A DNA stretch of 38,354 nucleotides, from the IMG/VR virus record IMGVR_UViG_3300027721_000036, positions 1-38,354 of that record; one strand, written 5' to 3'. Position 1 is the first letter of the stretch. Each line of letters opens with the position of its first letter. The notes beneath the pieces were generated by a model that was not told the DNA's origin, searched no databases, and worked only from the letters and a program-made list of their open reading frames with translations. The DNA comes from a virus. Below are positions 18,260 through 37,222 of the stretch, one piece after another. A program made the translations under genes and the position numbers.

Positions 18260-18622
18260 TAATACCGTCTATATGAATACTTGAGGCAGGCTTTTTTTAT
18301 TTATGATATACACAAATCCATTTTTTTGTTATATGCGTCAATGTTTGGGGGATGCTATATACCCCTTTAAAATTTTACGGGGGTGGCTCTGCCTTACTGG
18401 GGGGCTTATATTTTTACTGACTACCTGCCAGCCGTTTTAATAGCTTACTAAATTTGTAACTGATCTAATAAAATAGGATTGAAAAATAAATTTTTTACAG
18501 TACAGAAAGAAATTATTTTTTTATCTGTGCTATAAATAAAAATAAAATAAAAATAGTTTGATGCTAATATATATTTATATATGATAATCAAACTGTATTG
18601 ATATAAATTTATTGCTGACTAC

Positions 18623-18662
18623 TTATTTAGATTTAGTCTAAATAAAAATAAGAGTATGTTTG
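18623..18662 (+). promoter_or_regulatory. Operator-like palindrome with downstream -7 element
   Basis: TTATTTAGA (18623-18631) and TCTAAATAA (18637-18645) are perfect 9-bp inverted copies around TTTAG. TATGTTTG (18655-18662) follows the left arm after 23 nt, so the arm could serve as a -33 substitute as in the late promoters. A single TTATTTAGA copy lies at 18678-18686. Confidence 0.55.
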
Positions 18663-18680
18663 CCGGTTGCTATGTACTTA

Positions 18681-18778
18681 TTTAGAATGAATATATATCA
18701 TAATAATATAATACTTTGGCACGGTTTTATTTTATGTAGAATGATTATAAATAAAACTTTGGCATGATTTTTTTTTAT
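18681..18778 (+). repeat. Imperfect direct repeat, two copies
   Basis: Each unit has TAGAATGA followed after a variable AT spacer by ACTTTGGCAYGRTTTT and then WTTTTAT. The ACTTTGGCA cores are at 18713-18721 and 18756-18764, 43 bp apart. Possible iterons or protein-binding sites. Confidence 0.5.
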
Positions 18779-18892
18779 TTTACAAAAGTATATAAATAAT
18801 AAATAATAAATAAATTTATATGTTTATGTAAAATTAATTAGCCTGATAATCAGTAAGTTAGCTATTTATTTGTAAAAAAGTACAAAAAAAAT

Positions 18893-18923
18893 TTGCATTT
18901 CGGTTGTTCTTGTTGTATATTTG
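18893..18923 (+). promoter_or_regulatory. Rightward promoter of the small-gene block
   Basis: TTG (18893-18895), 20 nt, TATATTTG (18916-18923), an exact consensus match. Leader of about 35 nt to the 43-aa gene, ending in AAAAACTATCAATTATG. Confidence 0.78.
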
Positions 18924-18964
18924 TAAAAGATAATTAATCAATAACAATTTAAAAACTATCAATT

Positions 18965-19096
18965 ATGGAAACTTTAAGAAAATTCGCAAAGATTGAAAAC
19001 ATCGCAATTTGTATTGTTTTTGCAATCTTAACAGGTTTAGTTGTTTATAATATTCTTACTCATGGAATCACTAGTACGGCTTCATTTGAATTTTAA
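18965..19096 (+). CDS. Small membrane protein (43 aa)
   Basis: METLRKFAKIENIAICIVFA with one transmembrane helix (about 12-32, IAICIVFAILTGLVVYNIL) and a short polar tail. First gene after a consensus promoter and with the AACTATCA leader, so very likely translated. Small early phage membrane proteins often act on superinfection or host envelope; no direct evidence here. Confidence 0.62.
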   Translation: METLRKFAKIENIAICIVFAILTGLVVYNILTHGITSTASFEF

Positions 19097-19153
19097 TAAA
19101 TAACAAATAAAAAAAACATCAACTAATTAATTAACAATTTAAAATTAAAAATT

Positions 19154-19534
19154 ATGGAAACTATCAAAAATCAGATCATTGAGTTAATCAATAACATGGA
19201 TCAAAACGAGTTAGTACAATTAAACAACCTGTACTGTCAAAGTGCTAACATATACGACAGCGAAGTATTTAGTAATGATGAAGAATTTTTTAGTATGTTT
19301 TACCCTAATGCAGGGGACGGCTTAAAAGTTGCTCAAGCTGTTTTTTATGGTGATTATAATTACAGTCATGATTGGGTAACTTTTAACGGTTATGGTAATT
19401 TACAAAGCTATGATTATTTTACTGCTGAAAACCTTTGTGAATTAGTCGAAACTATTGCCGAGTATATAGAAGAGAACGCGGACGATTTCAGCGACTTAAT
19501 AGATGTTAGCGAATTAACAGAAGACGAACAATAA
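19154..19534 (+). CDS. Very acidic early protein, DNA-mimic candidate (126 aa)
   Basis: By hand count about 27 Asp/Glu against two Lys and no Arg (K5 and K58), net charge about -25 in 126 residues. Acidic clusters run throughout, e.g. NDEEFF (41-46) and the C-terminus (IEENADDFSDL; ELTEDEQ). The central block (FYGDYNYSHDWVTFNGYGNL, about 65-84) recurs, as I remember it, in small conserved proteins of Bacteroidetes mobile elements. Charge and early timing suit a protein that imitates DNA to block restriction or another DNA-binding enzyme, as ArdA and Ocr do; homology to those is not visible. Confidence 0.65.
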   Translation: METIKNQIIELINNMDQNELVQLNNLYCQSANIYDSEVFSNDEEFFSMFYPNAGDGLKVAQAVFYGDYNYSHDWVTFNGYGNLQSYDYFTAENLCELVETIAEYIEENADDFSDLIDVSELTEDEQ

Positions 19535-19573
19535 TAAATAAAATAATTAATTAACCTTTTAAAAACTATCAAC

Positions 19574-19918
19574 ATGAAAACTTATAAAATAACAACAGAA
19601 CACAACGTATTTATTGATAATTACGAAAACGGAGAAGGAAAAAGCGTTAATTTTTATATATTAACAAGTGAATGTAAAGCGCTAACAGTTCAGGATGCAA
19701 TAATAAACCATTTTAATAATACCGTTTATTTGCCTTTCGATATTCAGTACGCCGATATTGATAAAGAACAAAATTTAATTTTTTATTGTAACCTTGTTAA
19801 TGTAGACAATGAGGACCCAACAGAACACGAGCTCGAAGAATGGAAAAAGGGAAAAATTGAATTATACAGTAATCATATTGTTATAAGCGCTCAAGAATTA
19901 ACAAAAGTAATATTTTAA
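19574..19918 (+). CDS. Early hypothetical protein (114 aa)
   Basis: MKTYKITTEHNVFIDNYENG followed by an alpha/beta pattern with VQDAIINHF (about 38-46). The N-terminal 'xYKITxxxx' and the later '(T)AxDAxxA' rhythm are shared with the 52-aa protein next to it, suggesting distant paralogues. Acidic overall. Leader AAAAACTATCAACATG. No family recognised. Confidence 0.58.
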   Translation: MKTYKITTEHNVFIDNYENGEGKSVNFYILTSECKALTVQDAIINHFNNTVYLPFDIQYADIDKEQNLIFYCNLVNVDNEDPTEHELEEWKKGKIELYSNHIVISAQELTKVIF

Positions 19919-19940
19919 CTAACTTTTAAAAACTATCAAA

Positions 19941-20099
19941 ATGAACATTTATAAAATAACGCTAAAAAGCGACAGCGGAAAATTTAGCATCACTACTACA
20001 GCAATAGACGCGGACACGGCAAAATTTATAGTTTGCGAAGCTCAAAACTGCCCGCCGTTTGCAATAATTAAATGTAAACTAATTAAAAGAATTTATTAA
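19941..20099 (+). CDS. Small early protein (52 aa)
   Basis: MNIYKITLKSDSGKFSITTT, then AIDADTAKFIVCEAQNCPPF and a basic end. The fold looks like beta-beta-alpha-beta, as in small proteins whose first strand reads 'Y.I.L'. Leader TTAAAAACTATCAAAATG, one of the best matches to the early leader motif, supports this start. The likeness to the N-terminus of the preceding protein suggests duplication. Confidence 0.58.
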   Translation: MNIYKITLKSDSGKFSITTTAIDADTAKFIVCEAQNCPPFAIIKCKLIKRIY

Positions 20100-20118
20100 T
20101 CTATTAAAATTTAAAGTT

Positions 20119-20322
20119 ATGTTAAGTTATATAAACCACCCAGAAACGGACGAAAGAAAAGCCCATACAGATATTATGCTAAATAATGAGTATATAGGTT
20201 ACTATATTATATTAGATGAAGTTTTAACGGCTTTTATTGAGATTGAGCGCGAAATGTACGCCGGAGAATTCGAAAACATTAAACAGTTAGAAATAAAAAT
20301 AAATGAAGTATTAAACGATTAA
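20119..20322 (+). CDS. Small acidic early protein (67 aa)
   Basis: MLSYINHPETDERKAHTDIM; mostly helical after residue 30 and acidic. Nineteen nucleotides separate it from the preceding gene. No motif recognised. Kept because it fits the close, same-strand packing of the early block. Confidence 0.5.
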   Translation: MLSYINHPETDERKAHTDIMLNNEYIGYYIILDEVLTAFIEIEREMYAGEFENIKQLEIKINEVLND

Positions 20323-20333
20323 AATAATAAGCC

Positions 20334-20519
20334 ATGAACGATAACATAATTAAATTAGAACAGGTTTTAAAGTATTTAGAAATTAATTTAAAGCTATATG
20401 AAGAAAACAAAGAGAACGACAAATTACGCGATTGCTGGCATGACAGCGCAGTAATTGCCGGGCAGACTAAATTTGCAATAATAGCAATAAACGAAGTATT
20501 AAAAGACTTTACAAAATGA
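20334..20519 (+). CDS. Small helical early protein (61 aa)
   Basis: MNDNIIKLEQVLKYLEINLK, with further helix (ENDKLRDCWHDSAVIAGQTK) and an amphipathic C-terminus. Eleven nucleotides after the previous gene. No family recognised. Confidence 0.5.
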   Translation: MNDNIIKLEQVLKYLEINLKLYEENKENDKLRDCWHDSAVIAGQTKFAIIAINEVLKDFTK

Positions 20520-20592
20520 TATAAATTTTAAATATTTTCAAAACTTTACAAAATCGTATAAATAATAAATAACCATTTAATAAATAGAAATT

Positions 20593-20778
20593 ATGAACAC
20601 TGAACTAAAAAAAGCAATTGTAAATTTTATGTTTGACAATTCAAAAGACTTCCAATTAATAAACAATACTACTCATGAATTTAGGCCGTATATTTACGAT
20701 AGTAAAGGTAATTATTTAATTGGCGGTGAAAATGTAGCTAATTTTATAAAAGAAACAGAAAAATTAATTAAATTTTAA
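20593..20778 (+). CDS. Small early protein (61 aa)
   Basis: MNTELKKAIVNFMFDNSKDF, then TTHEFRPYIYDSKGNYLIGG and a closing helix. Alpha-beta-beta-alpha pattern. Its leader AATAGAAATTATG lacks the AACTATCA motif, so it is probably translated from the shared transcript. Confidence 0.5.
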   Translation: MNTELKKAIVNFMFDNSKDFQLINNTTHEFRPYIYDSKGNYLIGGENVANFIKETEKLIKF

Positions 20779-20789
20779 AATAATTTATC

Positions 20790-20906
20790 ATGACAATAAT
20801 AAAAACATACACGAGCAACGGCGTAAAATTAGCCATTGTAAGATACCCAGACGGGAGCGAAACCGTAATTAATTATAATTTTTTACCCAAACATCTGAAA
20901 AAATAG
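20790..20906 (+). CDS. Very small early protein (38 aa)
   Basis: MTIIKTYTSNGVKLAIVRYP, then DGSETVINYNFLPKH. A compact beta pattern. Eleven nucleotides after the previous stop. Reads through cleanly to TAG; supported only by position, so coding status is uncertain. Confidence 0.4.
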   Translation: MTIIKTYTSNGVKLAIVRYPDGSETVINYNFLPKHLKK

Positions 20907-20965
20907 TATTTAAAATTAGGTAGGACAGGCAAAAAATAATTAATAATTTATAAAATTTAAAAACT

Positions 20966-21217
20966 ATGAAAATCAAAATTGAAAATCTAGTCAGCATCAC
21001 GGAAATAATTCCAATGATTGACGCTAATGAAAAATCATGCTCATGTTGTGGTGAAGAATCAATAAAACATCATTTAACGTTTTATGAGGCTAAAAATGAA
21101 TACTTCTGCCGGCAATGTTCTGCCGATGGCTCCGCCGGGCGTCATATATTATTTAATTTTAACGGTACCGTAGCAGACTTTTCAGATACTTTAAAGTCTT
21201 TAAATATGGTTTTATAG
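20966..21217 (+). CDS. Small zinc-binding early protein (83 aa)
   Basis: Cys residues CSCCGEE (24-30) and FCRQCSADG (about 48-56) make a treble-clef or ribbon-like zinc site. The stretch SIKHHLTFYEAKNEYFCRQC is typical of such ribbons. The leader reads TTTAAAAACTATG, a degenerate form of the motif fused to the ATG. It may bind nucleic acid or a host transcription component; no direct evidence. Confidence 0.58.
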   Translation: MKIKIENLVSITEIIPMIDANEKSCSCCGEESIKHHLTFYEAKNEYFCRQCSADGSAGRHILFNFNGTVADFSDTLKSLNMVL

Positions 21218-21230
21218 TTAAAATAAGGTA

Positions 21231-21345
21231 GGAAAGGCACCAATTTTTTAAGGTATTTTTAGGTGCTAAAATTTTTGTCTTCGCTCGGTGGACAAAGTAG
21301 ACTAACTACTTATAAATTAAGCAGTTACAAAAATGCCTTTTTTCC
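21231..21345 (+). ncRNA. Possible small structured RNA or long leader
   Basis: Between two early genes. Nested helices: TTTGTC (21274-21279) with GACAAA (21291-21296), AGTAG (21296-21300) with CTACT (21306-21310), GCACC (21237-21241) with GGTGC (21262-21266), and an outer GGAAAGGCA (21231-21239) that could close with TGCC...TTCC (21334-21345). The outer and GCACC helices cannot coexist fully. No promoter of its own was seen; it may be a leader of the 81-aa gene. Confidence 0.35.
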
Positions 21346-21382
21346 AATTTTTTAGTGTAATTTTAACCAAAAATTTAACGTT

Positions 21383-21628
21383 ATGAGCAAAGATGAATTA
21401 AAAGAGGTATTAATACATACTATTGTGCTGCAATTACAGATATTAAACCCTGAAAAGTATAAAAATGGTATAGACAGGAACCAAAAAATCCTCCTTGAGA
21501 TACTAAATCCTGATGAGCTGGAGAAGATTATTCAAATATATCAGGACCAGATAACAGCCATGTTGAAAGGAATGAGGAATAAATTATATGGTCACAGATT
21601 GCAACCTGACCACTATTGCAATAATTAA
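21383..21628 (+). CDS. Small helical protein, last early gene (81 aa)
   Basis: MSKDELKEVLIHTIVLQLQI, with helices continuing (RNQKILLEILNPDELEKIIQ) and a C-terminus carrying GHRLQPDHYCNN. Mildly basic end. No family recognised. It closes the rightward early block; a 7-bp palindrome at 21638-21654 (ATTTAAG/CTTAAAT) follows but lacks a strong U-tract. Confidence 0.5.
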   Translation: MSKDELKEVLIHTIVLQLQILNPEKYKNGIDRNQKILLEILNPDELEKIIQIYQDQITAMLKGMRNKLYGHRLQPDHYCNN

Positions 21629-22014
21629 AATTAGACGATTTAAGCCACTTAAATGTATTTAAACGTAGGTAGGCAAGGTAGGGAGGTTAAAAGCTTCTGT
21701 AATGGCAAGGAAATGGCTAAAAAAGGCGTGTAGATAGGTAGGTAGGTTTTATATCCCTCCCCCAAAGGTGATATAATACTAATTAGGGGCATAAAATGTC
21801 TACTGGGTGTTGATGGGTATGGTTAGACATTATTTAGCTATTATTTAGACGTTATGGGGTATATTTAAGATTGGGTAGGCAGGTTTGTTATGCTTGTAGG
21901 ATATTGCTTATTGGTACTTATTATCCTTGTAGATTCTTAAATACTTTTTAAAATACATTAGGGTATTCCTTGCGGAATGAATTCTTCGGATATATTATAT
22001 TCAAAATATGAGCA
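21629..22014. repeat. Non-coding junction with GGTAGG repeats
   Basis: About 386 bp without a gene, between convergent transcripts. GGTAGG-type sites occur at 21668-21686 (several in tandem), 21737-21746 and 21873-21883; related sites are at 20919-20930, 21227-21238 and 22095-22105. Also present are an inverted repeat ATGTCTA/TAGACAT (21796-21802, 21824-21830) and two TTATTTAG copies (21830-21837, 21841-21848). Candidate origin, or binding region for the adjacent two-HTH protein. Confidence 0.45.
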
Positions 22015-24553: not shown

Positions 24554-24851
24554 GTTCAATCATTTGTTCTTGGTTAATTTCTTCCTCTAATTCTTTTACC
24601 AACTCTTCACTTTGAGAATCTAATACGTCTTTCAGTGGCTTGAAATGAGAATGATTGTATCCACCTGTTCCCGGAAACTCTTCCAACATTATGTACCAAC
24701 AAGAAAATGTATCGTCATAACCTTTTACTCTATCAAACGTATAGATTACGTCTTTTTGCGGAGGTATAAAGGACAACTTTTGTCCCATTTTGTTAATTCC
24801 TCTAAATGATTTGATGCAAACCAGTTTAGTTCCTTTTTTCCAATTTATCAT
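24543..24851 (-). CDS. Small beta-barrel-like protein (102 aa)
   Basis: Residues 1-80 read like the SH3-like small proteins frequent in Bacteroidetes phages: KGTKLVCIKSFRGIN, 'F.P.KD.IYTFDRV', then a closing HSHFKPL. The last 20 residues are a Glu-rich helix. Overlaps the previous gene by 4 nt. Function unknown. Confidence 0.5.
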   Translation of the reverse strand: MINWKKGTKLVCIKSFRGINKMGQKLSFIPPQKDVIYTFDRVKGYDDTFSCWYIMLEEFPGTGGYNHSHFKPLKDVLDSQSEELVKELEEEINQEQMIEHER

Positions 24852-25402
24852 ATATTTTTATTTAAACAATTATTATAAAACTCTTTTGCCGCCGTTACTA
24901 TTAAAGAATGTAATACCTTTTTATCGTATCCTCCAAAAACATACAGCGCATAGATATTCTCGTAAGCTTTCATGTAAGTCGCCTGCTCATTGTAGTAACC
25001 TTCATGGTATGTTAACGCCGGGTTTATTAAAAACAATTTCTCTTTAGGTACAATTGGGATGATAATTCCTAACCTTACTAACTGCTGAAAATCATTTCTG
25101 TTAAACATTACCGTTTTACGCGTCTTAACTTCATTACCAAACTTATTTTGAACAGCTTCTAAATATTGTCCGTACTTAACCAACAAGTGAGTATTAAATT
25201 CTAATACATTATTTTTCTTTGCTTCAAATATTAAAAACGTCAGTAGTCTTGCAAGATTTGTTTCGGATCCTGTTATATACGCTGTAAAGTTTTTAGTAAT
25301 AACTCTATTGGATTTATGAATTGATAGTTCTCTAAAATCTAATAAGGTTTCGATTTCAGTCTTTTGCACTCGGCGATTGTTACCCTGTCTATTAATTCCC
25401 AC
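24848..25402 (-). CDS. RepL-like winged-helix protein, first gene of leftward operon (184 aa)
   Basis: Start set at GTG 25402, because the leader just before it reads TATAAAAACTATCAAA, the early leader motif; an in-frame TTG at 25447 would be almost at the transcription start. Residues about 45-145 (TNLARLLTFLIFEAKKNNVL; FNRNDFQQLVRLGIIIPIV; KEKLFLINPALTYHEG) follow the RepL-type replication protein pattern, whose winged helix ends in 'f.iNP.l...G'. It may initiate replication or regulate the divergent RNA/helicase promoter. Pattern-level evidence only. Confidence 0.55.
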   Translation of the reverse strand: MGINRQGNNRRVQKTEIETLLDFRELSIHKSNRVITKNFTAYITGSETNLARLLTFLIFEAKKNNVLEFNTHLLVKYGQYLEAVQNKFGNEVKTRKTVMFNRNDFQQLVRLGIIIPIVPKEKLFLINPALTYHEGYYNEQATYMKAYENIYALYVFGGYDKKVLHSLIVTAAKEFYNNCLNKNI

Positions 25403-25457
25403 TTTGATAGTTTTTATATTATTTATATAAATTCTGAAAATATTCAAAATTTATACG

Positions 25458-25628: not shown

Positions 25629-25730
25629 TATTGTAACATACCGATAGTTTTATATAGGTATAAAAATTGCTTATAAATACAAATAATTTAATAATGTTTT
25701 CAACAACCGTTATTATTCCGTAAAATTTAT

Positions 25731-25761
25731 TTGCAGAATTAAAATAAAGTTTGTAACTTTG
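25731..25761 (+). promoter_or_regulatory. Strong rightward promoter of the structured RNA
   Basis: TTTG (25730-25733) then 20 nt, then TAACTTTG (25754-25761), exact consensus. Transcription would begin near 25768, directly before the closing helix of the RNA. Confidence 0.8.
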
Positions 25762-25770
25762 CACAAATTA

Positions 25771-26203
25771 GTTCTTTAAAAACATTGCAGGGTAATTGCT
25801 GTGCTCTATTCCCGTAAGAAAATCATAGCCCCTGCGAACTTGTTGCGTTTCAAGTAAGTCCTGTTGTATGCAGGTTTGTGATTGACGGTTGAGGCTTATT
25901 GCATAGCGTAGAATAGCATTAATGTAATAATAATAGGTGCTACACGTATCGTAAGAAACAAATAGCTTGAAACGCGATTACATAGTCAGGTAGAGTAAAA
26001 GTAACTCATAGTTGCGCGATAAAAAGCAAAATACTAAGAAACAGGGGCAGTACCTGTCTTGGCTACAAAATCTCTGATGCGCGCAGAGAACGTAAGCTTT
26101 CAAGTTTGGTTAATGTGAATAGCATTCACAACCAACCACTAAGAAACTAAATCGTAAGTTAGCGTAGTAGCGGTCTACGGCTATTTAAAACCGCTTTTAG
26201 AAC
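25771..26203 (+). ncRNA. Candidate large structured RNA (about 433 nt)
   Basis: No credible reading frame, clearly richer in G and C than its surroundings, and many helices. Closing stem GTTCT (25771-25775) with AGAAC (26199-26203), extended by AAAA (25778-25781) with TTTT (26195-26198). Stem 2: GCAGGG + GCTGTG (25787-25792, 25798-25803) with CATAGC + CCCTGC (25824-25835). Long-range stem: GCGTTTCAAG (25845-25854) with CTTGAAACGC (25966-25975). Local hairpins: CTAAG-AA-ACAGG/CCTGTCTTGG (26034-26062), TCTCTG/CAGAGA (26071-26089), TTGGT..TGTGAAT/ATTCACAACCAA (26106-26135), CGTAG/CTACG (26163-26179), the last competing with AGCGGT/ACCGCT (26169-26174, 26190-26195). CGTAAG, which can form a GNRA tetraloop, appears four times. 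It could be a free RNA or the leader of the helicase gene. Confidence 0.68.
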
Positions 26204-26223
26204 ATTAAACTATCAGGTAATAA

Positions 26224-27828
26224 ATGAAACCATTAAGAGATTATCAAATCAAAGCCATTAACGCGGTCAAAAAAGAACTTGACAATGGCGTTAAGAAACA
26301 GTTATTAGTAATGGCAACCGGCACAGGCAAAACCTTTACCGCCGTTAAAGCCATAGAACAATTTAACTTTCAACGAGTATTGTGGATTACACATACAGAA
26401 GAGTTAGTTCAACAATCCGCATTAGCCTTTTTATCCGAAAAGTTTGATAAGGAGCTTACTGATGCTGTTGAAGATATAGGATTCATTAATTGGGTCCATA
26501 ATGGTTCGGGAATGTTCGGATGTAGAGGTATTAAATTCAGAATGGGATTAATAAAGGCAGATGCTTTTTATCCTGATGGAAGCGTAGTAATGGCTTCTGC
26601 TCAAACGCTATACAGAAGATTAGATAAATTACCAAAAGACCATTTTGATGCTATTATCTGTGACGAAGCTCATTTATTCCTTAGTCGTACATTCTCCGAT
26701 CCTTTAAAATACTTTGAACCTAAACTATTATTGGGATTAACGGCAACGCCTACGCGTTTAGATGGTATGCAGTTAGGTAATATGTTTGATAAAATAGTTT
26801 ATAGTTACGATATTGCGGACGGAGTTAAAGACGGTTACTTGTGCGAGTTAGATGCTGTAAGAATTAAAACTGATTTATCACTTGATAACGTCAGAACAAC
26901 AGGCGGTGAATTTAACGCTAAAGATTTATCAAACGAAGTAGATATACCTCAAAGGAATAAGCTAATTGTAGATTCGTACAAAACATACGCAGAAGGAAGA
27001 CAGGGTATTTTCTTTTGTGTTGATATTAAACATAGCTTACATTTAGCAGAAGAGTTTAAATCACAAGGAATTATTTGTAATGCTGTTTCGTCTGATGAAG
27101 AATCAACAGGAGATAGGTCACAAACTATTAAAGATTTTAAGGCGGGTAAAATACAAGTATTAACTAATGTAGGTATTCTCACGACAGGATTCGATCACAG
27201 AAACACGGGAGTTATAGGTAATTGCGCTCCGACTAAATCGTTATCTAAATATTTGCAATGTATCGGCAGAGGCACCCGTTTAAAAGATGAGAACTTTGTT
27301 GCTAAATACGGGCAGAATTGTGTCATACTTGATTTTGTTGATAGCACAACAAGACACAAGCTAATTAACGCTTGGAGCTTAGATTCAGGAAAGGCAACGG
27401 AAGAGAAAGTATTCATGACTAAGGCTAAAAAGAAAGCATTAATTGATGAAAGAGAAAGAAAGATAGCCTATGTAGTAGCTACATCCAAAAAAGACGTTAA
27501 GGTTGATTTATTTGCCTTACCAAAAGTTTATATCAGTAACTCTATTAAGATGGAAGAGCCTGCTACCGAAAAACAATTAGCATGGATAGCTCGTTTAGGA
27601 TATGATACAGTAAACGTAGAATACACAAAGAAAATGTGTAGTGAAATTATCAGCGCGCAACCAGCAACAGAAAAACAAATTGGTTTATTAAAATGGAAAG
27701 GTTACGATGTTAGCAATGGAGTAACAATATCAGAGTTTAAAATGGCGCTTAACGAAATAGAAAAAAGAGAAAATAAAGAAGTAGTAAATAAATACACACC
27801 TAACAATAATGGTAATCCATTCTTTTAA
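26224..27828 (+). CDS. SF2 DEAH-box helicase (534 aa)
   Basis: ATP-dependent DNA/RNA helicase of the type I restriction HsdR/UvrB-like branch. Motif I MATGTGKT (30-37), motif II DEAH (147-150), motif III GLTATPT (171-177), a motif V region LTTGFDH (319-325) and motif VI QCIGRGTR (345-352). Two C-terminal repeats (ATEKQLAWIARLGYD near 447; ATEKQIGLLKWKGYD near 480) are small helical modules seen at the ends of several Bacteroidetes phage helicases. Likely acts in replication or recombination. The leader AAACTATCAGGTAATAAATG is complementary to the loop of the hairpin RNA at 22933-22989. Confidence 0.85.
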   Translation: MKPLRDYQIKAINAVKKELDNGVKKQLLVMATGTGKTFTAVKAIEQFNFQRVLWITHTEELVQQSALAFLSEKFDKELTDAVEDIGFINWVHNGSGMFGCRGIKFRMGLIKADAFYPDGSVVMASAQTLYRRLDKLPKDHFDAIICDEAHLFLSRTFSDPLKYFEPKLLLGLTATPTRLDGMQLGNMFDKIVYSYDIADGVKDGYLCELDAVRIKTDLSLDNVRTTGGEFNAKDLSNEVDIPQRNKLIVDSYKTYAEGRQGIFFCVDIKHSLHLAEEFKSQGIICNAVSSDEESTGDRSQTIKDFKAGKIQVLTNVGILTTGFDHRNTGVIGNCAPTKSLSKYLQCIGRGTRLKDENFVAKYGQNCVILDFVDSTTRHKLINAWSLDSGKATEEKVFMTKAKKKALIDERERKIAYVVATSKKDVKVDLFALPKVYISNSIKMEEPATEKQLAWIARLGYDTVNVEYTKKMCSEIISAQPATEKQIGLLKWKGYDVSNGVTISEFKMALNEIEKRENKEVVNKYTPNNNGNPFF

Positions 27829-27830
27829 TC

Positions 27831-27968
27831 ATGTTTAAAATCACTCATCAAGAATTAGAGCAAATAAAGAAAATTGCAAAGTCAATATCAAAGACATCAA
27901 TATTTGCTAAAAAGAAGTCTGATAAAATTATAAAATTAATTGACGATAAATTTCTAAATACAAAATGA
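27831..27968 (+). CDS. Small basic protein (45 aa)
   Basis: MFKITHQELEQIKKIAKSIS, Lys/Ile-rich helix. Two nt after the helicase stop, with its TGA overlapping the next ATG. Position supports it; no motif. Confidence 0.5.
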   Translation: MFKITHQELEQIKKIAKSISKTSIFAKKKSDKIIKLIDDKFLNTK

Positions 27969-28267
27969 CAACAGAACAACAGCATCGCCACTTCGAAAGA
28001 ATGATTAACAGAATGGCGGAAGTAATGATGAGCAAAGGAAACGATTATGCCAACGCAGACCGTTTGAGTAACTTTAAAACAGCAGGAGCAATAGTAGGAG
28101 TTTCCCCTGAAATTAATTGTTTATCGTTGATAGCTACTAAGGTTGCAAGATTGGGAGTTTTATTAAATAGTAAGGGTGAACCTAATAATGAGAGCATAAG
28201 AGATAGCGTATTGGATTTAGCTAATTATGCAGTATTGTTAGATATGTTATTAAGCGAAAAGAAATGA
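27965..28267 (+). CDS. DUF1599-like protein (nucleotide-modification associated, 100 aa)
   Basis: Contains KGNDYANADRLSNFKTAG (about 25-41), SLIATKVARLGVLL (about 54-67) and SIRDSVLDLANYAVLLDMLL (about 77-96), the ordered signature of the DUF1599 / Nmad1 family found in phages next to nucleotide metabolism or modification genes. The all-helical fold resembles MazG-type pyrophosphatase modules. The biochemical role is not established; no DNA-modification gene is in view here. Confidence 0.75.
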   Translation: MTTEQQHRHFERMINRMAEVMMSKGNDYANADRLSNFKTAGAIVGVSPEINCLSLIATKVARLGVLLNSKGEPNNESIRDSVLDLANYAVLLDMLLSEKK

Positions 28268-28476
28268 CAACAATACATGAGTTTAAACAAATATTATGGG
28301 TATCAACACCTCACGGGGACGGAATGGCTTTATTTATTATTGATTATGGTCCACATGAAAATACTATTTGGGCAGTAGCTCTTGAAGATAGCGGAATAAT
28401 TAAACACTACAACAGTAATGATATTAAGTTATGCTTTAATCACACTTTTAACATGAATACAATTAAAAACAAATAA
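28264..28476 (+). CDS. Conserved small phage protein (70 aa)
   Basis: FKQILWVSTPHGDGMALFII, then DYGPHENTIWAVALEDSGII and NDIKLCFNHTF. I have seen this signature (tight beta barrel with 'TP.GDG.a.fiIDYG.H.NTIW') in many Flavobacterium phage genomes, without a function. Overlaps its upstream neighbour (ATGA). Confidence 0.62.
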   Translation: MTTIHEFKQILWVSTPHGDGMALFIIDYGPHENTIWAVALEDSGIIKHYNSNDIKLCFNHTFNMNTIKNK

Positions 28477-28477
28477 T

Positions 28478-28657
28478 ATGAAATTAAGTTTACGCGCCAA
28501 AAAAGAAATTAGAGAATACTTGAGAGTGGTAGATATTAATAGTTTACCAAAAGAAAGAAGATTGCCTCTTATAAAAGAGCTTATTGCTAATTTTAGAGAA
28601 ATTGAAGAGTTAAGTCTATGGGAAAAATTTCAATCCATTTATGTTTTTAACAAATGA
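28478..28657 (+). CDS. Small charged protein (59 aa)
   Basis: MKLSLRAKKEIREYLRVVDI, then helical segments rich in Arg/Glu/Leu. TGA overlaps the next ATG. No family recognised. Confidence 0.5.
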   Translation: MKLSLRAKKEIREYLRVVDINSLPKERRLPLIKELIANFREIEELSLWEKFQSIYVFNK

Positions 28658-29070
28658 ATGAAATAATAAAAAAGTGTATTACTTGCAAGATTAAAAAACC
28701 TAAAACGAGGGAATTTTGGAGATATGACAAAAGAAGAGAAGAACCAAACGGGTCTTGTAAAGATTGTATTAATAAAAAGAGAAGTTTACACAGAAAAATA
28801 AAAAGAATTTCAAATTACGACACGGATTCAGGTATTGCTAAAAGAATTAGAATTAAAGATTTAGATAAAGAACTTATAGAGGCTCAAAGGGTAAGATTGA
28901 TATTGCTTGACAGAATTAAAAATGGTTATCATTTAATACTAAATAATGATAGTTTATATTGTAAAATATGTAAAAAGAAACAACAATTAATTTTACCAGT
29001 ATCTCTTAATCTTTTAATAGAATCAATAAAGGCATTTAAAAAAATACACAAACATGAAAAAAGAATATGA
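28654..29070 (+). CDS. Zinc-ribbon protein with basic tail (138 aa)
   Basis: Cys pairs CITC (8-11) with KIKKPKTREFWRYDKR, and CKDC (35-38) form a ribbon; a second CKIC pair (about 108-111) follows within a basic region. The first half resembles the zinc-binding part of endonuclease VII-like proteins, as does the 78-aa protein at 17825, but no catalytic His-Asn-His set is visible. Likely nucleic-acid binding. Confidence 0.58.
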   Translation: MNEIIKKCITCKIKKPKTREFWRYDKRREEPNGSCKDCINKKRSLHRKIKRISNYDTDSGIAKRIRIKDLDKELIEAQRVRLILLDRIKNGYHLILNNDSLYCKICKKKQQLILPVSLNLLIESIKAFKKIHKHEKRI

Positions 29071-29518
29071 AATAAAAAAAGCACTTGACAAATTGATTAA
29101 CCATGTTTTATATGATAAAGATGGTTTAATATGTAAATTTAAAGATTATAGTTATTTTAATGGAACAAAAGAGATATGCTTAAGATTTTATTACGGAGCA
29201 GCGGCATCCCAAATAATAAAAGAATTTATCATAAAAGAAGATGAATTAGCCCTTGTGATAGATTCTTATACAATAGCGACAAACCAATCAATAAACACAA
29301 AACCCAAAAAAGAAATGAGCGAACACACAGACAACAATCTAAAAGGATTAAGGACACATTTATTCTCCGCTATTAAAAAACTCGAAGGAGGCACAATGAA
29401 AAACGAAGACGCTAAGGCTATGGCGCAAGTCGCTCAAGTTATTATTAATTCTGCTAAATTAGAAATGGAGTTTAAACTATTAGTTACCGATAAACCTAAA
29501 ATAGACTTATTGGATTAA
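29054..29518 (+). CDS. Hypothetical protein with C-terminal helical module (154 aa)
   Basis: Residues 1-85 are an alpha/beta domain (IKKALDKLINHVLYDKDGL). From about 88 (MSEHTDNNLKGLRTHLFSAI, then MKNEDAKAMAQVAQVIINSA) the sequence matches a small helical protein that I recall as free-standing in many phages; an internal ATG at 29315 could start such a product. Overlaps the upstream gene by 17 nt. Confidence 0.55.
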   Translation: MKKEYEIKKALDKLINHVLYDKDGLICKFKDYSYFNGTKEICLRFYYGAAASQIIKEFIIKEDELALVIDSYTIATNQSINTKPKKEMSEHTDNNLKGLRTHLFSAIKKLEGGTMKNEDAKAMAQVAQVIINSAKLEMEFKLLVTDKPKIDLLD

Positions 29519-29534
29519 ATTAAAAACAAACAAC

Positions 29535-29729
29535 ATGAAAACAAAACAAAAATTAATTGAAATGGTTTACAACTATTTATGCTACGATTTAAAATTAGAT
29601 AATAGGTGGCATGACCCAAGTCAAACAAATAAACATTGGGTAAATGTAAAAAAGGATGCTGAAAATATTGTTAACTTAATAATCAAAGAGCATGAAAACA
29701 GTAGAAAACGAAGCAAATTACATACTTAA
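29535..29729 (+). CDS. Small hypothetical protein (64 aa)
   Basis: MKTKQKLIEMVYNYLCYDLK, then DNRWHDPSQTNKHW and a helix. Its 3' end overlaps the next gene by 38 nt. No family recognised. Confidence 0.48.
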   Translation: MKTKQKLIEMVYNYLCYDLKLDNRWHDPSQTNKHWVNVKKDAENIVNLIIKEHENSRKRSKLHT

Positions 29730-29898
29730 TCAGTATTTAAAAGTTTGCAAAACATTAGAACTAGCAAAAGAATGTTCTATTTTATCAGTAGAAAAAATAA
29801 TGGAAAATTGTAAACAAAACAAAGTTCCTTATTGGCACGGAGTAAAAAATGAATTAATGAATGTTAGAACTAATTACTTTATAGATTTAAGAAAATGA
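29692..29898 (+). CDS. Small helical protein (68 aa)
   Basis: MKTVENEANYILNQYLKVCK, then LELAKECSILSVEKIMEN. The pattern 'ENEAN.IL..YL..c.tLELAKECsi..V' is recurrent in small Bacteroidetes phage proteins as I remember them. Function unknown. Confidence 0.55.
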   Translation: MKTVENEANYILNQYLKVCKTLELAKECSILSVEKIMENCKQNKVPYWHGVKNELMNVRTNYFIDLRK

Positions 29899-30167
29899 AC
29901 TACACAACAACTACTACGTTAGATAATTACTGGAAAAATAGACAAAAAGATTTTGTAAAAACATTAAAAGAAATTATTGAAAATTACATTATTCTTGAAT
30001 TTGGAAATGATTTAAAACTTGATGTTGAAATGGGATTATTTACTTCTGATAACTACGGGTCATACAGGATTAATTTTTATAACAAAGAAAAAGAAATTGT
30101 AGCATATACAATAGCAGACACAATAATGGGAGAATGGAAAACATATAAAACAAATAAACATGAGTAA
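29895..30167 (+). CDS. Hypothetical protein (90 aa)
   Basis: MNYTTTTTLDNYWKNRQKDF, then an alpha/beta pattern ending AYTIADTIMGEWKTYKTNK. Overlaps the previous and the next gene slightly, so it is in the same transcript as the GroES gene. Not recognised. Confidence 0.5.
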   Translation: MNYTTTTTLDNYWKNRQKDFVKTLKEIIENYIILEFGNDLKLDVEMGLFTSDNYGSYRINFYNKEKEIVAYTIADTIMGEWKTYKTNKHE

Positions 30168-30618
30168 AACAACAAAAAAAGGATTCGATGTTCCGGCAGG
30201 ATTTCCGATTCCACTAAACAAGTCAGTGATTTTAGAAAAAATCAAAGAAGAAAAAGAAGTATCAAAAATTATCTTAACAGAAAGCGCCGAAGAAAATAAT
30301 ATTGGTAGAGTAATGGCTGTTGCTGATAATTGCGATCCTCGTATCAAAGTAGGAAGCAAAGTAATGTTTAACATTCTTGAAAACAGAACCATTCGTTTTG
30401 AAGGTAACTATTACTTTATTATGCACGAAGTAGCTTTATTCTGTGTGTTGCCTGACGAAGCTATATTGATGCCAGAAACCATTAGCAAACGCGTTAAAGA
30501 ACGTGAAGCTAAGTTGCAGAACGAACAAAAAAGACTTAATGAGAACTACAAAAGAGAACTAAACAGTCTTGATAAAGTTAAGTCGGAAGCAAAGAAAAAG
30601 TTTAGTAAGAAAAAATAA
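30160..30618 (+). CDS. GroES-like co-chaperonin with C-terminal extension (152 aa)
   Basis: Residues about 17-97 follow the GroES fold in order: FPIPLNKSVILEKIKEE (first strand and lead-in), a mobile loop with the GroEL-binding hydrophobic tripeptide IIL (37-39), GRVMAVADN (49-57, the 'G.V.aVg' strand), IKVGSKVMF (62-70) and FEGNYYFIMHEVALFCVL (80-97, 'l.g..y.imre.dilavi'). From about 105 a charged helical tail is added, absent from host GroES. It probably pairs with host GroEL to fold a virion protein, as T4 gp31 does for its capsid. No groEL gene is in view. Confidence 0.8.
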   Translation: MSKTTKKGFDVPAGFPIPLNKSVILEKIKEEKEVSKIILTESAEENNIGRVMAVADNCDPRIKVGSKVMFNILENRTIRFEGNYYFIMHEVALFCVLPDEAILMPETISKRVKEREAKLQNEQKRLNENYKRELNSLDKVKSEAKKKFSKKK

Positions 30619-30641
30619 TTGTAAGATTTTACAAAAATAAT

Positions 30642-30672
30642 TTGCAAATTGATTATTAATTTTGTAACATTG
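30642..30672 (+). promoter_or_regulatory. Promoter of the recombination gene cluster
   Basis: TTG (30642-30644), 20 nt, TAACATTG (30665-30672), one mismatch to TAnnTTTG. The leader ends ATAAAAACTATCAGTCATG. Confidence 0.6.
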
Positions 30673-30710
30673 TACAAATTTTTACGTTATACATATAAAA
30701 ACTATCAGTC

Positions 30711-31310
30711 ATGAACACAATCACAACAACCGACAGAGTAGATTTAGAATGGAGTAAACTACAATCTACAAAAGACGTATTCATTCAGTTATCTGAAGAA
30801 GCGTTACAAATTAAAGTTACAGACGATGTATCTTTAGCTATTGCAAATCAAAAGTTATCCGCAGTAAACAATCACTTAAAACTGATTGAAGAGAAAAGGA
30901 CAGAACTTAAAAAGCCTTACCTTGATGCAGGTAAAAAAGTAGATGCAGTTGCTAAGGATTTATCTGAACCTCTTAACAATTCTATTCAGTACCTTAAAAA
31001 TCAAATTAAGGAATGGAACTTAGAATTACTAAGAAGAGAGCAAGAACTTAAACAGCAAGCTCCAGCTAACAGTTTATTTGAAGACAGCATTAACCATGAG
31101 TTAGCTATGTTAGAATCACAAAAAGCATCTAACATCAGACACAATTGGAAATTTGATGTTGTTGACCTTAGCAGAGTTCCTGTTCAATTCTTAATGGTTG
31201 ACGAGGCAAAAGTTCGTGAATGGATTAAGGCTAACAAAGAATCACTTAACGATGGTGATATTATTGCAGGTATTAAGTTTTACAAAGAAGTATCAGTAGT
31301 TACTAAGTAA
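30711..31310 (+). CDS. Recombination-associated coiled-coil protein (199 aa)
   Basis: N-terminal helices with KLIEEKRTELKKPYLDAGKK (about 57-77), a long coil (about 80-118), then a compact end: WKFDVVDLSRVPVQFLMVDE, AKVREWIKANK and GIKFYKEVSVV. This pattern ('KRk.LkkPyldagkkid...W...D...vP..fl.vd...v......G..f......v') is typical of phage proteins placed beside RecT/Erf or SSB genes. Directly downstream lie the SSB-like genes. Function is inferred from this context. Confidence 0.62.
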   Translation: MNTITTTDRVDLEWSKLQSTKDVFIQLSEEALQIKVTDDVSLAIANQKLSAVNNHLKLIEEKRTELKKPYLDAGKKVDAVAKDLSEPLNNSIQYLKNQIKEWNLELLRREQELKQQAPANSLFEDSINHELAMLESQKASNIRHNWKFDVVDLSRVPVQFLMVDEAKVREWIKANKESLNDGDIIAGIKFYKEVSVVTK

Positions 31311-31603
31311 TGGCAAAAGACAAACAAGTTCCCGACAAACTTATCAGTATGTTTCCGCAATACACACGCAAAGAATTATATTTTATGCTGTATCCTTTTT
31401 GGACGGGAGTATCTGATAGGTTTAAAAGGAAAAAGTCAGATGTTTCAGCAGTATCAATAACAGTTAAAGGTTTAGGCAGATTTGAATTTAAAAGCAATGC
31501 TAAGATGAGAAAGTCAGCAACGTTATTGAGAAAGAGAATTACTAAGAAACTAACTAATTACAAAAGGAAACAAGAGTTAAAGACGGATAAATTAATTTAT
31601 TAA
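31310..31603 (+). CDS. Basic hypothetical protein (97 aa)
   Basis: MAKDKQVPDKLISMFPQYTR, then VSITVKGLGRFEFKSNAKMR and a Lys/Arg-rich helix. Strongly basic; it may bind nucleic acid. ATG overlaps the previous stop. The family is not recognised, although 'kGLG.F......K+.' recurs in small Bacteroidetes phage proteins. Confidence 0.5.
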   Translation: MAKDKQVPDKLISMFPQYTRKELYFMLYPFWTGVSDRFKRKKSDVSAVSITVKGLGRFEFKSNAKMRKSATLLRKRITKKLTNYKRKQELKTDKLIY

Positions 31604-31627
31604 TAAACAAACAAAAACAAAAACAAG

Positions 31628-32422
31628 ATGGGACTATCAACACCACAGGGTCAAAGAACCCAAAAGCCAATTCCTCCAGCAGGATTACACCCAGCAATTT
31701 GCTATGCAATAATTGATATGGGTACGCATCAAGAAAATTTCAAAGGCAACGTAAGCAGTAAGCCTAAAGTAAAGTTCTGCTTCGAGTTTCCAACATTACC
31801 TGAACAGGTATTTGACGAAACAAGAGGACCTCAAAGATTATCTATTATGCAAGATTACAATTTCTATTCAGATGAAAAGGCTAACCTTTGCAAGATGCTT
31901 AAACAATGGAGAGGGGTAGCTAAAATTGATTTAGCAAAAGACTTACCTGCATACTTAGGGCAGTCATGTCAAGTAATGGTTGTTCACACTCAAAAGGACG
32001 ATATTACCTACGCTAACATAGCTGCATCAGGAACAATGATTATGCCTCCGACAAGTAATTATGGTCAACCTAAAAACGCGCCGTTCTTATTCGATTTAGA
32101 TAAGTTTTCATGGCAACAATTTCATTCTTTATGGCAATACGTTCAGAAGAAAATCAGAGAATCACAAGATTGGCAAAACATTATTACTAAGTTTGGTCCT
32201 GAACCACAAGTTGGTCAAGCAATGCCTCAACAGCCTGTTCAAACGTTTCAGCCTCCACAATATCAACAACCTGTTTTTACGCAACCAGTACAACAGCAAG
32301 CTCCTGTTCAACAACAGGTACCTTTCCAACAAAATAATGTATTTCAGCAACAGGCTCCTCCTCAAATGAACGCTCCACAGACAGGTATTTTTATTGACGA
32401 TAATCAAGGTGCGCCGTTCTAA
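31628..32422 (+). CDS. SSB-like single-stranded DNA-binding protein (264 aa)
   Basis: N-terminal domain (about 1-185) with beta-rich lead-in PAGLHPAICYAIIDMGTHQE and KPKVKFCFEFPTLPE, consistent with an OB-type phage ssDNA binder. Residues about 195-250 are a Gln/Pro-rich flexible linker. The chain ends IFIDDNQGAPF, an acidic tip ending in Pro-Phe like the protein-recruiting tail of bacterial SSB. All three parts match the SSB plan, though the N-terminal domain is not recognisably the classical SSB fold. It likely coats DNA in replication and recruits partners. Confidence 0.7.
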   Translation: MGLSTPQGQRTQKPIPPAGLHPAICYAIIDMGTHQENFKGNVSSKPKVKFCFEFPTLPEQVFDETRGPQRLSIMQDYNFYSDEKANLCKMLKQWRGVAKIDLAKDLPAYLGQSCQVMVVHTQKDDITYANIAASGTMIMPPTSNYGQPKNAPFLFDLDKFSWQQFHSLWQYVQKKIRESQDWQNIITKFGPEPQVGQAMPQQPVQTFQPPQYQQPVFTQPVQQQAPVQQQVPFQQNNVFQQQAPPQMNAPQTGIFIDDNQGAPF

Positions 32423-32424
32423 AC

Positions 32425-32832
32425 ATGGGACTATCTGTTACTATACCGCAATTGAAAGAAGAAATTCCGCACGGAGTTCACGAATGTGTTATTGACAATG
32501 TTTATGCTTTAAAAGATGCAAACGGAGATTTAATAACATACCTTGCTTCGCCTTGTGTAGTTTTTTCTTTTAATTGTAACGGTAATATTTTTGAAAAAGC
32601 ATTCCGTATTGGGGATCAGTTTGAATATAAAACTTTTAAAAAGTTACTTGCTATATTGGGAGTTCTTAAAAAAGATATTGCTTTTAGCAGAAACGATGTG
32701 ATAGGTAAAAAGGTTTGTATATTCATACAAAAGATTATCAACAAGGAAACGGGTGAATACACTATGAAAATAGTAAACTACAAGCCAGCAGGAAAGAATT
32801 ATACTTACATAACATCAGAAATATACGTATGA
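32425..32832 (+). CDS. Second SSB/DUF669-like protein (135 aa)
   Basis: Starts MGLSVTIPQLKEEIPHGVHE, echoing the MGLS start and layout of the preceding gene, and shows ECVIDNVYALKDANG, FEKAFRIGDQFEYKTFKKLL and IGKKVCIFIQKIINKETGEY. This strand order fits an OB-fold 'DUF669-like' ssDNA-binding domain without linker or tip. The two look like diverged tandem copies. It may be an accessory to the larger protein. Confidence 0.6.
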   Translation: MGLSVTIPQLKEEIPHGVHECVIDNVYALKDANGDLITYLASPCVVFSFNCNGNIFEKAFRIGDQFEYKTFKKLLAILGVLKKDIAFSRNDVIGKKVCIFIQKIINKETGEYTMKIVNYKPAGKNYTYITSEIYV

Positions 32833-33284
32833 GTTTAATAGTAAGACATTATGGAAAGATACAGAATGGTAAAAAGATTTACTACAATACCGAATTGTAT
32901 AAGAAACAACTTGAATCATTAGAAGGTCAAGAGTTTGAAGAGATTATTAAAAAAAGATATAAGAAAGTTTCTACTGACCAACACGCATATTACAGGGGAG
33001 CTATATTGCAAACAGCTCATCAGCACGAATCGTTTAGCCATTTTAATAAAGCGGATGATATTCATGAAGATGTTATAGCTCCAATGTTTTTATCTTACAT
33101 TAAACCTATTAGACTGAAAAATATACGTTGGGACAAATTAGAGGTTACGAGTACTTCATCTTTATCTAAGGAAGATATGAGTAAATTCATAGAAAAAGTA
33201 TTGGCATGGTTAGCTGTTGAATTTGGAATAGAAGTATTGTCGCCAGAAGATTATTATTTAAAATTAAGTGAAAATGGAAGTTGA
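32829..33284 (+). CDS. NinB-like recombination protein candidate (151 aa)
   Basis: Contains KKVSTDQHAYYRGAILQTAH (about 45-64), EDVIAPMFLSYI (about 79-90), STSSLSKEDMSKFIEKVLAW (about 107-127) and ends FGIEVLSPEDYYLKL. The order 'S..Q..YY.g....h....' then 'StssLs...f..yi..i..wa...gi..pdP..y' matches NinB-type proteins (ORF family of lambda) found in Bacteroidetes phages. NinB/Orf stimulates recombination on SSB-coated DNA, which fits its neighbours. Confidence 0.65.
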   Translation: MSLIVRHYGKIQNGKKIYYNTELYKKQLESLEGQEFEEIIKKRYKKVSTDQHAYYRGAILQTAHQHESFSHFNKADDIHEDVIAPMFLSYIKPIRLKNIRWDKLEVTSTSSLSKEDMSKFIEKVLAWLAVEFGIEVLSPEDYYLKLSENGS

Positions 33285-33468
33285 ATTAAGATTAAAGGCT
33301 ACTGAATACGCTATATTATACGATGAAAGAATAGAAGAAATATGTTTTTATCTTAACGAAAAAAGCGTTGTAATAAGCGGATTAGATAAAGACGAAAAAG
33401 TAATTAGTCAGTTTGAAGTAGAAAGAAGTGAATTTGTAAAATTAACAAACTTAGTGAATAAATTATGA
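33274..33468 (+). CDS. Small hypothetical protein (64 aa)
   Basis: Start taken at the ATG at 33274 (MEVELRLKATEYAILYDERI); a GTG 6 nt earlier is possible. Beta-alpha pattern with acidic bias (EEICFYLNEKSVVISG). Overlaps the upstream gene by 11 nt and the downstream ATG by 4. Not recognised. Confidence 0.5.
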   Translation: MEVELRLKATEYAILYDERIEEICFYLNEKSVVISGLDKDEKVISQFEVERSEFVKLTNLVNKL

Positions 33469-33755
33469 AACTAAACATTGAAGGGAAAGAGCCTGAAATG
33501 GCAAAAATCCAAAGAGTAAAAGATAAAGACGGAGAAGAATATATTGCTAAGGTAATGTGTTATTCCGATTCAGTCGCAAAAACAAAATCGTTCGGCGATG
33601 TTTATTCTTTTGCATCAATAGAACACGCAGTAAGGGGAGAAATTATATTTTCCTTGCTATTTACATCGCCATTAACTTCAGAACAAGTTGATAAGCAATT
33701 TAACTACATGATTGATAACATAGATAAAATTTTGGAGGAACGAGAAAATGGGTAG
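33465..33755 (+). CDS. Hypothetical protein (96 aa)
   Basis: MKLNIEGKEPEMAKIQRVKD, mostly alpha-helical from about 45 (FASIEHAVRGEIIFSLLFTS; EQVDKQFNYMIDNIDKILEE). Overlaps both neighbours slightly. No family recognised. Confidence 0.5.
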   Translation: MKLNIEGKEPEMAKIQRVKDKDGEEYIAKVMCYSDSVAKTKSFGDVYSFASIEHAVRGEIIFSLLFTSPLTSEQVDKQFNYMIDNIDKILEERENG

Positions 33756-34098
33756 AAAATATTCGGTTATTAAGACTAACCAAAAAATAAGACAGGCGAT
33801 AATTGATAGGATTAATATACTTAAATTAACGCAACAAGACGTTATAAACGATGCAGCTTTAAGAGGGTATAAATTACCTGTTGATATGATTAGCAGATAT
33901 TTAAAGCACGGCGATATGAAAGGCTCATTAAGAGAAGATCAGATTATTTGGCTTGCAACTCGTTACGGAGTGTTTATCAACTTAACAATTGGTAGTCCTG
34001 AAATTGACGAGAACGGTAAAATAAAATTTGCTGTAAAAGAATTTAACGAAGAACAAAGTTTAAAAAAATTAAAATTATTATTTCCCGGAACAAAATGA
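33748..34098 (+). CDS. HTH-type DNA-binding protein candidate (116 aa)
   Basis: Residues about 10-60 (IRQAIIDRINILKLTQQDVI, then VDMISRYLKHGDMKGSLRED) show an XRE-like helix-turn-helix pattern in which 'LTQQDV' begins the second helix and 'ISRYLKHG' marks the end of the recognition helix. The remainder (IIWLATRYGVFINLTIGSPE) is a small extension. It could regulate the phage promoters, possibly at the TTATTTAGA sites, but no target is shown. Confidence 0.55.
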   Translation: MGRKYSVIKTNQKIRQAIIDRINILKLTQQDVINDAALRGYKLPVDMISRYLKHGDMKGSLREDQIIWLATRYGVFINLTIGSPEIDENGKIKFAVKEFNEEQSLKKLKLLFPGTK

Positions 34099-34469: not shown

Positions 34470-34627
34470 TTAATATAATTAAAGCATTTTTTCTACTCAC
34501 AACACTTTATCTACCTGTTGTTGTATCAATAATGACAGGGAGTTCAATGTGGTTATTCATGTGGTTTTTTGTAATATTTGTAAGCGTATTTGATAATGAT
34601 AAAGATAACGGGAGTAACAACGATTAA
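34466..34627 (+). CDS. Small membrane protein (53 aa)
   Basis: MINIIKAFFLLTTLYLPVVV, then MWLFMWFFVIFVSVF: two hydrophobic stretches (about 5-20 and 25-40) with a short acidic tail. Its stop overlaps the start of the next gene. A two-helix membrane protein inside the replication operon could be a holin-like or inner-membrane anchor; no further evidence. Confidence 0.55.
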   Translation: MINIIKAFFLLTTLYLPVVVSIMTGSSMWLFMWFFVIFVSVFDNDKDNGSNND

Positions 34628-36442: not shown

Positions 36443-36517
36443 AAACTATTTTTTTATAAAATTATTTGTAACTTTATACAAATTACTACGTTAAAGGTTA
36501 TATAAAAACTATCAATC

Positions 36518-37042: not shown

Positions 37043-37053
37043 AACAAATAAAT

Positions 37054-37194: not shown

Positions 37195-37222
37195 TTGAAA
37201 TAACTATAAGATTATTCTTTAT

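Follow-up and report, generated by a model that had tools for sequence, protein, structure and literature searches.

A conserved structured RNA opened by a boxA-like element, predicted ahead of the helicase gene of a Crassvirales-related phage

Comparative sequence analysis makes it very probable that positions 25771-25975 (plus strand) of the investigated phage DNA form a conserved structured RNA of about 205 nt, directly preceding a helicase gene. The window, i.e., the whole stretch of DNA that was analyzed, is a 38-kb virus record (38,354 nucleotides). Its major capsid protein resembles the Pfam Crassvirus capsid family (1.6e-25), and its terminase matched at least 20 phage records with 20-25% identity, 16 out of 20 being named uncultured phages. 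Those terminase-matching records whose taxonomy was inspected belong to the Crassvirales. Capsid and terminase matches in combination place the phage near this order. The RNA probably represents a new phage RNA family ahead of replication genes, a candidate as yet confined to one small group of phages.

The RNA is located in a gap of 776 bases between a leftward gene (24848-25447) and the rightward helicase gene (26224-27828). Two divergent Bacteroidetes-type promoter matches are present within this gap (25488-25458, minus strand; 25731-25761, plus strand), with the RNA lying downstream of the rightward one. The original prediction had described a non-coding stretch of about 430 nt, richer in G/C than its surroundings. 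Both properties hold: no long ORF runs across the stretch, the longest stop-free runs being 54 codons forward and 69 codons reverse, and its G+C content amounts to 39.3%, above that of the sequence immediately upstream (18.9%), of the helicase gene (35.0%), and of the window as a whole (32.1%). Elsewhere in the window, positions 18260-22014 constitute a long AT-rich and sparsely coding stretch with small rightward ORFs.

A search with the helicase led to three metagenomic contigs carrying the RNA, L002, L004, and L003. L002 and L004 are identical over the leader and show 97.8% identity to the window, while L003 shares 87% identity in the helicase and 74% in the RNA over about 205 nt. The known relatives of the RNA therefore comprise two distinct sequences; including the window there are three, two of them 98% alike, which limits the statistical power for paired changes. 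In L003 the RNA is shorter, consisting of the counterpart of 25771-25975 followed directly by the helicase start region. A reverse-strand open frame of 69 codons was dropped as a gene candidate; within the core it spans 68, 56, and 42 codons in the window, L002, and L003, respectively. The RNA is absent from the further helicase relatives L083 (61%), L175 (48%), L176 (46%), and L178 (38%). In L083 (1-990), a GIY-YIG-like ORF was recognized by eye ahead of the helicase, preceded by a leader that contains a CCCACA/TGTGGG hairpin and a T run; this region has no match to the strict promoter pattern, the leader has no boxA match, and a tRNA-like stretch near 40-115 is not accepted by ARAGORN.

The structure is primarily supported by paired changes. 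Between the window and L003, 10 of 52 consensus pairs differ in both bases, 4 in one, and 38 are the same, with none broken; the comparison with L002 adds up to 4 one-sided changes, again without a broken pair. Counted over all three sequences, 11 pairs are double-changed (the eleventh resting on a tie) and 6 one-sided, 156 out of 156 cells being paired. Of 500 shuffles, none attained the count of double changes or the score for covariation, and 33 attained the number of further pair types; controls with slid register gave 0-2 double changes. As the 52-pair structure was derived from the window/L003 pair, it is favored by construction, making column shuffling with refolding the better control. 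Under column shuffling, the RNAalifold consensus fold reached z -8.0, -8.1, and -8.6 in three alignments (0/300 each), for core bounds picked after the alignment was seen. When syntenic windows of no more than 85% identity were scored on a fixed grid, position 25763 (plus strand) gave z -4.15, the lowest of 94 strand-windows (mean -0.26, sd 1.26). The reverse strand was also low, in the consensus fold (z -6.4, 0/300) as well as on the grid (-3.83, second lowest). Because the fold scores low on both strands, the RNA was assigned to the plus strand on the basis of promoter and operon orientation. Folding of single sequences of the 5' core resulted in z -2.29 for the window (4/200), -2.51 for L002 (3/200), and -3.76 for L003 (0/200).

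A fuller three-sequence consensus contains 63 pairs, 12 of which are double-changed; nine are broken or gapped in L003 (five of inner P1, two at the end of P2, and two of an inner helix). Next to changed helices, AUUGACGGUUGAGGCU and UAUCGUAAGAAACA, which are strands of loops and internal loops, hardly vary, a pattern that may resemble RNAs with tertiary contacts or a ligand. All 10 differences between the window and L002 fall within the 5' core. A pairing C25886-G25901, proposed from two of these differences, was dropped, being broken in L003 by eye and having its first site explained by P5.

The P1 domain (25781-25844, like all helices on the plus strand) shows paired changes in three of its helices. 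It is composed of the helices 25781-25784/25841-25844 and 25785-25792/25830-25837, an inner helix 25798-25803/25824-25829, and an apical helix 25809-25811/25818-25820 around the invariant CCGUAA loop (25812-25817). The inner helix exists in this register in the window and L002 only; it breaks in L003 in this alignment, a different helix being predicted there. A bulged stem had been anticipated in this domain and is recovered within 25785-25837 with pair probabilities of 0.81-1.0, its outer part being supported by paired changes. The same applies to a perfect 10-bp stem (25845-25854/25966-25975, pair probability 0.96), which forms part of the long-range helix P2 (25845-25855/25965-25975) closing the inner domain. 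Nine pairs of P2 were counted, of which four are double-changed, two one-sided, three constant, and none broken; three of the double changes lie between the window and L003, the fourth hangs on a three-way tie, and L003 has gaps at the two outermost pairs. The inner domain comprises the hairpin P3 (25860-25874, 2/5 pairs double-changed) and helix P4 (25875-25879/25958-25962, within 25875-25962, 1/5 pairs double-changed), followed by an internal loop whose strands AUUG and AAGAA do not vary. P5 (25885-25891/25945-25952) has two one-sided changes in seven pairs, and its internal pairing differs between the two consensus folds. P6 (25892-25896/25905-25909) and P7 (25914-25920/25936-25942) are predicted helices, invariant in all sequences. 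The repeats reported before are present, namely four copies of CGTAAG (0.23 expected, 0/2000 shuffles) and two of ACTAAGAAAC (0.001 expected, 0/2000 shuffles). The GNRA loops ascribed to the former were not found, as neither core CGTAAG is a tetraloop in the covariation-supported fold: one falls into the CCGUAA hexaloop plus the pair that closes it, the other into the P5 helix and an internal loop.

In contrast to the core, the 3' extension (25976-26195, plus strand) occurs in the window and L002/L004 only. Since L003 lacks it, no comparative support exists for the length of 430 nt, the closing stem, or the 3' switch given in the original prediction, whose claim of a large structured RNA stands with respect to conserved structure, but for a unit of about 205 nt. 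Folding energy of 25760-26225 was within chance (z -0.92, 16/100 shuffles as low), as compared with z -1.78 (6/100 shuffles) for 25771-26207. Ordinary folding energy alone would thus speak against the structured RNA, a verdict that is reversed by the comparison with L003. The suggested closure of the stretch on itself is predicted for GTTCT/AGAAC (0.70-0.83), but AAAA/TTTT reaches just 0.13-0.20, and the closing stem is not conserved, with GAAC in L003 serving as the 3' strand of P2. The two stems of the supposed 3' switch have probabilities of 0.04-0.07 (CGTAG/CTACG) and 0.25-0.34 (AGCGGT/ACCGCT) in the window; the switch region is lacking in L003 and without differences in L002/L004. A stem at 26169-26195 with TTTTA behind it is weakly predicted (0.25-0.34), and the fold of the extension gave z -1.61 with 15/200 shuffles as low. 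Extension and core have many words in common, i.e., 16 seven-mers (3.7 expected, 0/2000 shuffles), 9 eight-mers (1.0 expected, 1/2000), and 3 nine-mers (0.27 expected, 42/2000). The idea of a degenerate core copy was dropped, as model R1, the covariance model of the core, finds none with filters off. Likewise, the complete lack of differences between the window and L002 in 25976-26223 was not taken as constraint, as coding blocks nearby show almost no differences either and exchange or recency explains it.

The putative promoter was identified by pattern match at 25730-25761 (plus strand), consisting of TTTG (25730-25733), a spacing of 20 nt, and TAACTTTG (25754-25761), which would put the transcription start near 25768. 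Its pattern follows what we take to be the Bacteroidetes promoter consensus; TTG-N17-22-TAnnTTTG has 13 matches in the window (7.2 +/- 2.8 expected), 7 of them intergenic. The RNA had been predicted to possess its own promoter. This fits the window, but in L003 a 111-codon gene separates the promoter (2351-2381) from the RNA without a further promoter match in the interval. This gene (L003:2399-2734, plus strand) encodes a 111-aa protein homologous to the Thoeris anti-defence protein Tad1 (PDB 8kbb, 5e-12; 41.5% to Tad1 of Bacillus phage SBSphiJ7) and is missing from the corresponding place in the window.

The first gene after the RNA codes for a DEAD/DEAH-type helicase (26224-27828, plus strand; Pfam ResIII 5.1e-30, Helicase_C; phrog_16 6.2e-87). 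Judged from ORF direction and signal-free gaps, it opens a rightward early/replication operon of about 12 kb (26224-38231, plus strand), which the promoter of the RNA probably serves. The non-overlapping ORFs taken as genes in this region are all rightward, with helicase, GroES-like, and DnaB genes among them. The GroES/Cpn10-like gene is found at 30160-30618 (plus strand, Pfam 5.1e-11). No plus-strand terminator-like site was detected within the operon, where a single site lies on the minus strand (4.7 expected). Its gaps are free of Bacteroidetes-type promoter matches, one such match lying inside a gene at 34753.

A probable phage translation-start element, AAACTATCA (26207-26215, plus strand), is positioned 8 nt before the helicase ATG, is kept in L003, and gives the outermost possible 3' end of the RNA unit. 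In total 11 copies occur in the window (0.95 expected, 0/100 shuffles; among them 19563, 19930, 25413 on the minus strand, 26207, 30699, and 36506), 8 of which lie -1 to 8 nt from the start codon of a frame with 40 or more codons. From its placement, a GTG near 25402 may be the start of the leftward gene 24848-25447. The core is 248 nt away from the helicase start in the window and 40 nt in L003; this variable distance, together with the separate start element, argues against translation control by the core.

A feature overlooked in the earlier reading is the boxA-like 5' end. The RNA starts with the boxA-like element AGTTCTTTAAAA (25770-25781, plus strand), which is kept in L002/L004 and, in the form GGTTCTTTAAAA, in L003, and is similar to Bacteroidota rRNA leaders. 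The name boxA refers to what we take to be the E. coli consensus. Among 35 16S rRNA loci sampled from genomes of Bacteroidota, the 5' end could be read in 31; TTCTTT[AG]A was found in 18 of these leaders, the 13 misses comprising 6 leaders shorter than 220 nt and 7 of full length (400 nt). The longer GTTCTTT[AG]A is present in 16 out of 28 distinct leaders, with 0 in antisense and a mean of 0.08 (at most 3) in shuffled leaders. The commonest rRNA leader form of the motif is AGTTCTTTGA. Compared with the common leader form GTTCTTTGAAA, the phage element agrees in 10 of 11 positions and has an A where most leaders of the presumed host phylum carry a G. Even though the tad1-like gene lies between promoter and RNA in L003, the boxA-like element still opens the RNA there; consequently, it stays with the RNA and not with the promoter.

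A second copy, the 16-nt AATTAGTTCTTTAAAA, is located past the stop codon of the capsid gene and immediately precedes a terminator hairpin. It is kept in three phages (window 6979-6936, minus strand; G002 and G003; loci L073 and L074) and may tune read-through past the capsid gene. When one mismatch at most is allowed, GTTCTTTAAAA has 7 occurrences in the window, not more than chance would give (5.4 expected); its two exact copies are both intergenic.

Homologue searches returned the known copies only. Pattern scans of viral contigs yielded true homologues, all known contigs, in 2/2, 1/51, 3/7, 3/8, and 3/7 of the matches, the remaining ones being judged unrelated by their surrounding sequence, and a scan of genome contigs gave 0 matches. 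By blastn against phages, a match of ~40 bases upstream of the RNA appeared in the listed 20 of 27 records; plasmids gave no match. Model R1 found only known copies in 51 + 46 sources, which covered 76 out of 80 loci of one helicase-relative set, the other four being the known contigs and again L083. The model had no hit in four whole genomes from a second 80-locus set (0/4) or in 395 genomes of the same phylum (strict filters, no positive control genome), and two hits, both already known, in 12 records including five Crassvirales genomes. A 73-base match in L090 was dismissed as AT-rich chance. Rfam gave no gathering-level match in the window, L075, L077, and L083; at E up to 5, solely a snoRNA model (0.65, minus strand of 26198-26252) was reported for the window and nothing for L003:2730-3000. 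ARAGORN found 0 tRNAs in the window, which is a fragment, and in five relative loci, and the RNA has no tRNA/tmRNA match.

The explanation we tentatively prefer, at somewhat less than even odds, is a boxA-tagged structured untranslated leader of the early operon of this Crassvirales-related phage, acting in Nus-type transcription control. After the polymerase leaves the promoter, host NusB and S10 would bind boxA and travel along; the modified polymerase would cross the long untranslated folded stretch without a Rho-dependent or folding-induced stop and read on into helicase and DnaB. The phage-specific part of the signal would most likely be the folded core, on which polymerase, Nus factors, or a phage protein could dock. 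As its distance to the helicase start varies between 40 and 248 nt, the core would act on transcription rather than on helicase translation. In one study, a sequence containing boxA gave partial rescue of a reporter from the Rho termination that a 567-bp noncoding leader causes, with the authors seeing the main role of the Nus complex in promoting rRNA maturation (PMC4807359). Another study calls boxA control outside rRNA widespread and reports that boxA can accompany more Rho termination, as for suhB (PMC5725501). This suhB precedent counts against the leader, as do the A/G mismatch to host leaders and the seven 400-nt leaders among 31 without a match. Furthermore, with no plus-strand intrinsic terminators in the operon, processive antitermination is not obviously needed, and L083, lacking R1 and boxA matches, indicates that the operon can do without the RNA.

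The main alternative, less likely than the leader, is a stand-alone trans-acting RNA in the manner of GOLLD and ROOL, cut from or terminated before the operon transcript, with boxA getting the RNA made and folded as in rRNA. The travel of boxA with the RNA, the lack of a fixed core distance to promoter or helicase start, and the strong structure with nearly invariant long loop segments would all fit; the extension sharing core words could be growth of the RNA product, and the tad1-like neighbor in L003 would suit an early counter-defence region. However, every known copy lies immediately ahead of the helicase gene, plus-strand terminator-like sites near the core amount to 25860-25874 inside it and none after, and the stem 26169-26195 with TTTTA is weakly predicted. 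We regard as improbable an elaboration by analogy, in which host rRNA machinery makes a free-standing phage RNA: a boxA-loaded Nus complex would let the polymerase loop the RNA, a mechanism that has been proposed for rRNA, aiding the folding of P2 and the inner domain, for a task such as early counter-defence or a NusB/S10 decoy, and the RNA would have grown by a module of core-like words in one lineage. Less credible still is a riboswitch or protein-sensing leader switching the operon via the competing 3' stems or by hiding boxA in GTTCT/AGAAC. Its 5' leader position, the predicted pairing in the window, and stems mutually exclusive on paper agree with it, but the stem probabilities are low, 3' stems and AGAAC pairing are absent in L003, where GAAC belongs to P2, and no Rfam riboswitch matched at E up to 5. 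Chance folding of a G+C-richer non-coding stretch, with the L003 similarity reflecting recent common descent, is very unlikely: the full-stretch energy within shuffles, the invariant P6 and P7, and the few sequences and post hoc bounds would allow for it, but the paired changes with their shuffle and slide controls and the invariant loops beside changed helices speak against it. We consider it equally far-fetched that a mobile-element remnant (intron or homing site) sits at a hot spot ahead of the helicase gene. The tad1-like gene in L003 and the GIY-YIG endonuclease ORF seen by eye in L083 point to such a hot spot; no group I/II intron matched in Rfam at E up to 5, no interrupted gene was seen, and no second copy was found in the window or in three relatives.

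In respect to known systems, one close likeness is to the boxA/Nus leaders of bacterial rrn operons and phage nut sites, sharing a 5' boxA-like element just after the promoter and a long untranslated folded RNA; an element like that of host rRNA leaders lies near the expected transcript start and is kept in the diverged L003. The difference is a folded core of about 190-205 nt followed by phage genes instead of rRNA. HK022 put RNA and EAR/LoaP elements are structured leader RNAs that could modify the polymerase in cis. They likewise precede an operon; size and fold differ as far as is known, and Rfam gave no match. GOLLD and ROOL are large folded phage RNAs of unknown function, often beside tRNA genes, many GOLLD exceeding 800 nt (PMC12286853). 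The present RNA measures 205-430 nt, lies directly ahead of an operon in a window fragment without ARAGORN tRNAs, and, as originally noted, shows no likeness to either class; the Rfam covariance models do not place it there.

Among the listed paper titles, judged by title only, no comparable boxA phage RNA from Bacteroidetes was found. If confirmed, the RNA would stand for a new family from a Crassvirales-related group of phages, and for a clear candidate case of a Bacteroidota phage making use of Nus factors. It would thereby offer a simple test system for boxA outside rRNA, setting termination protection against the folding of long RNAs.
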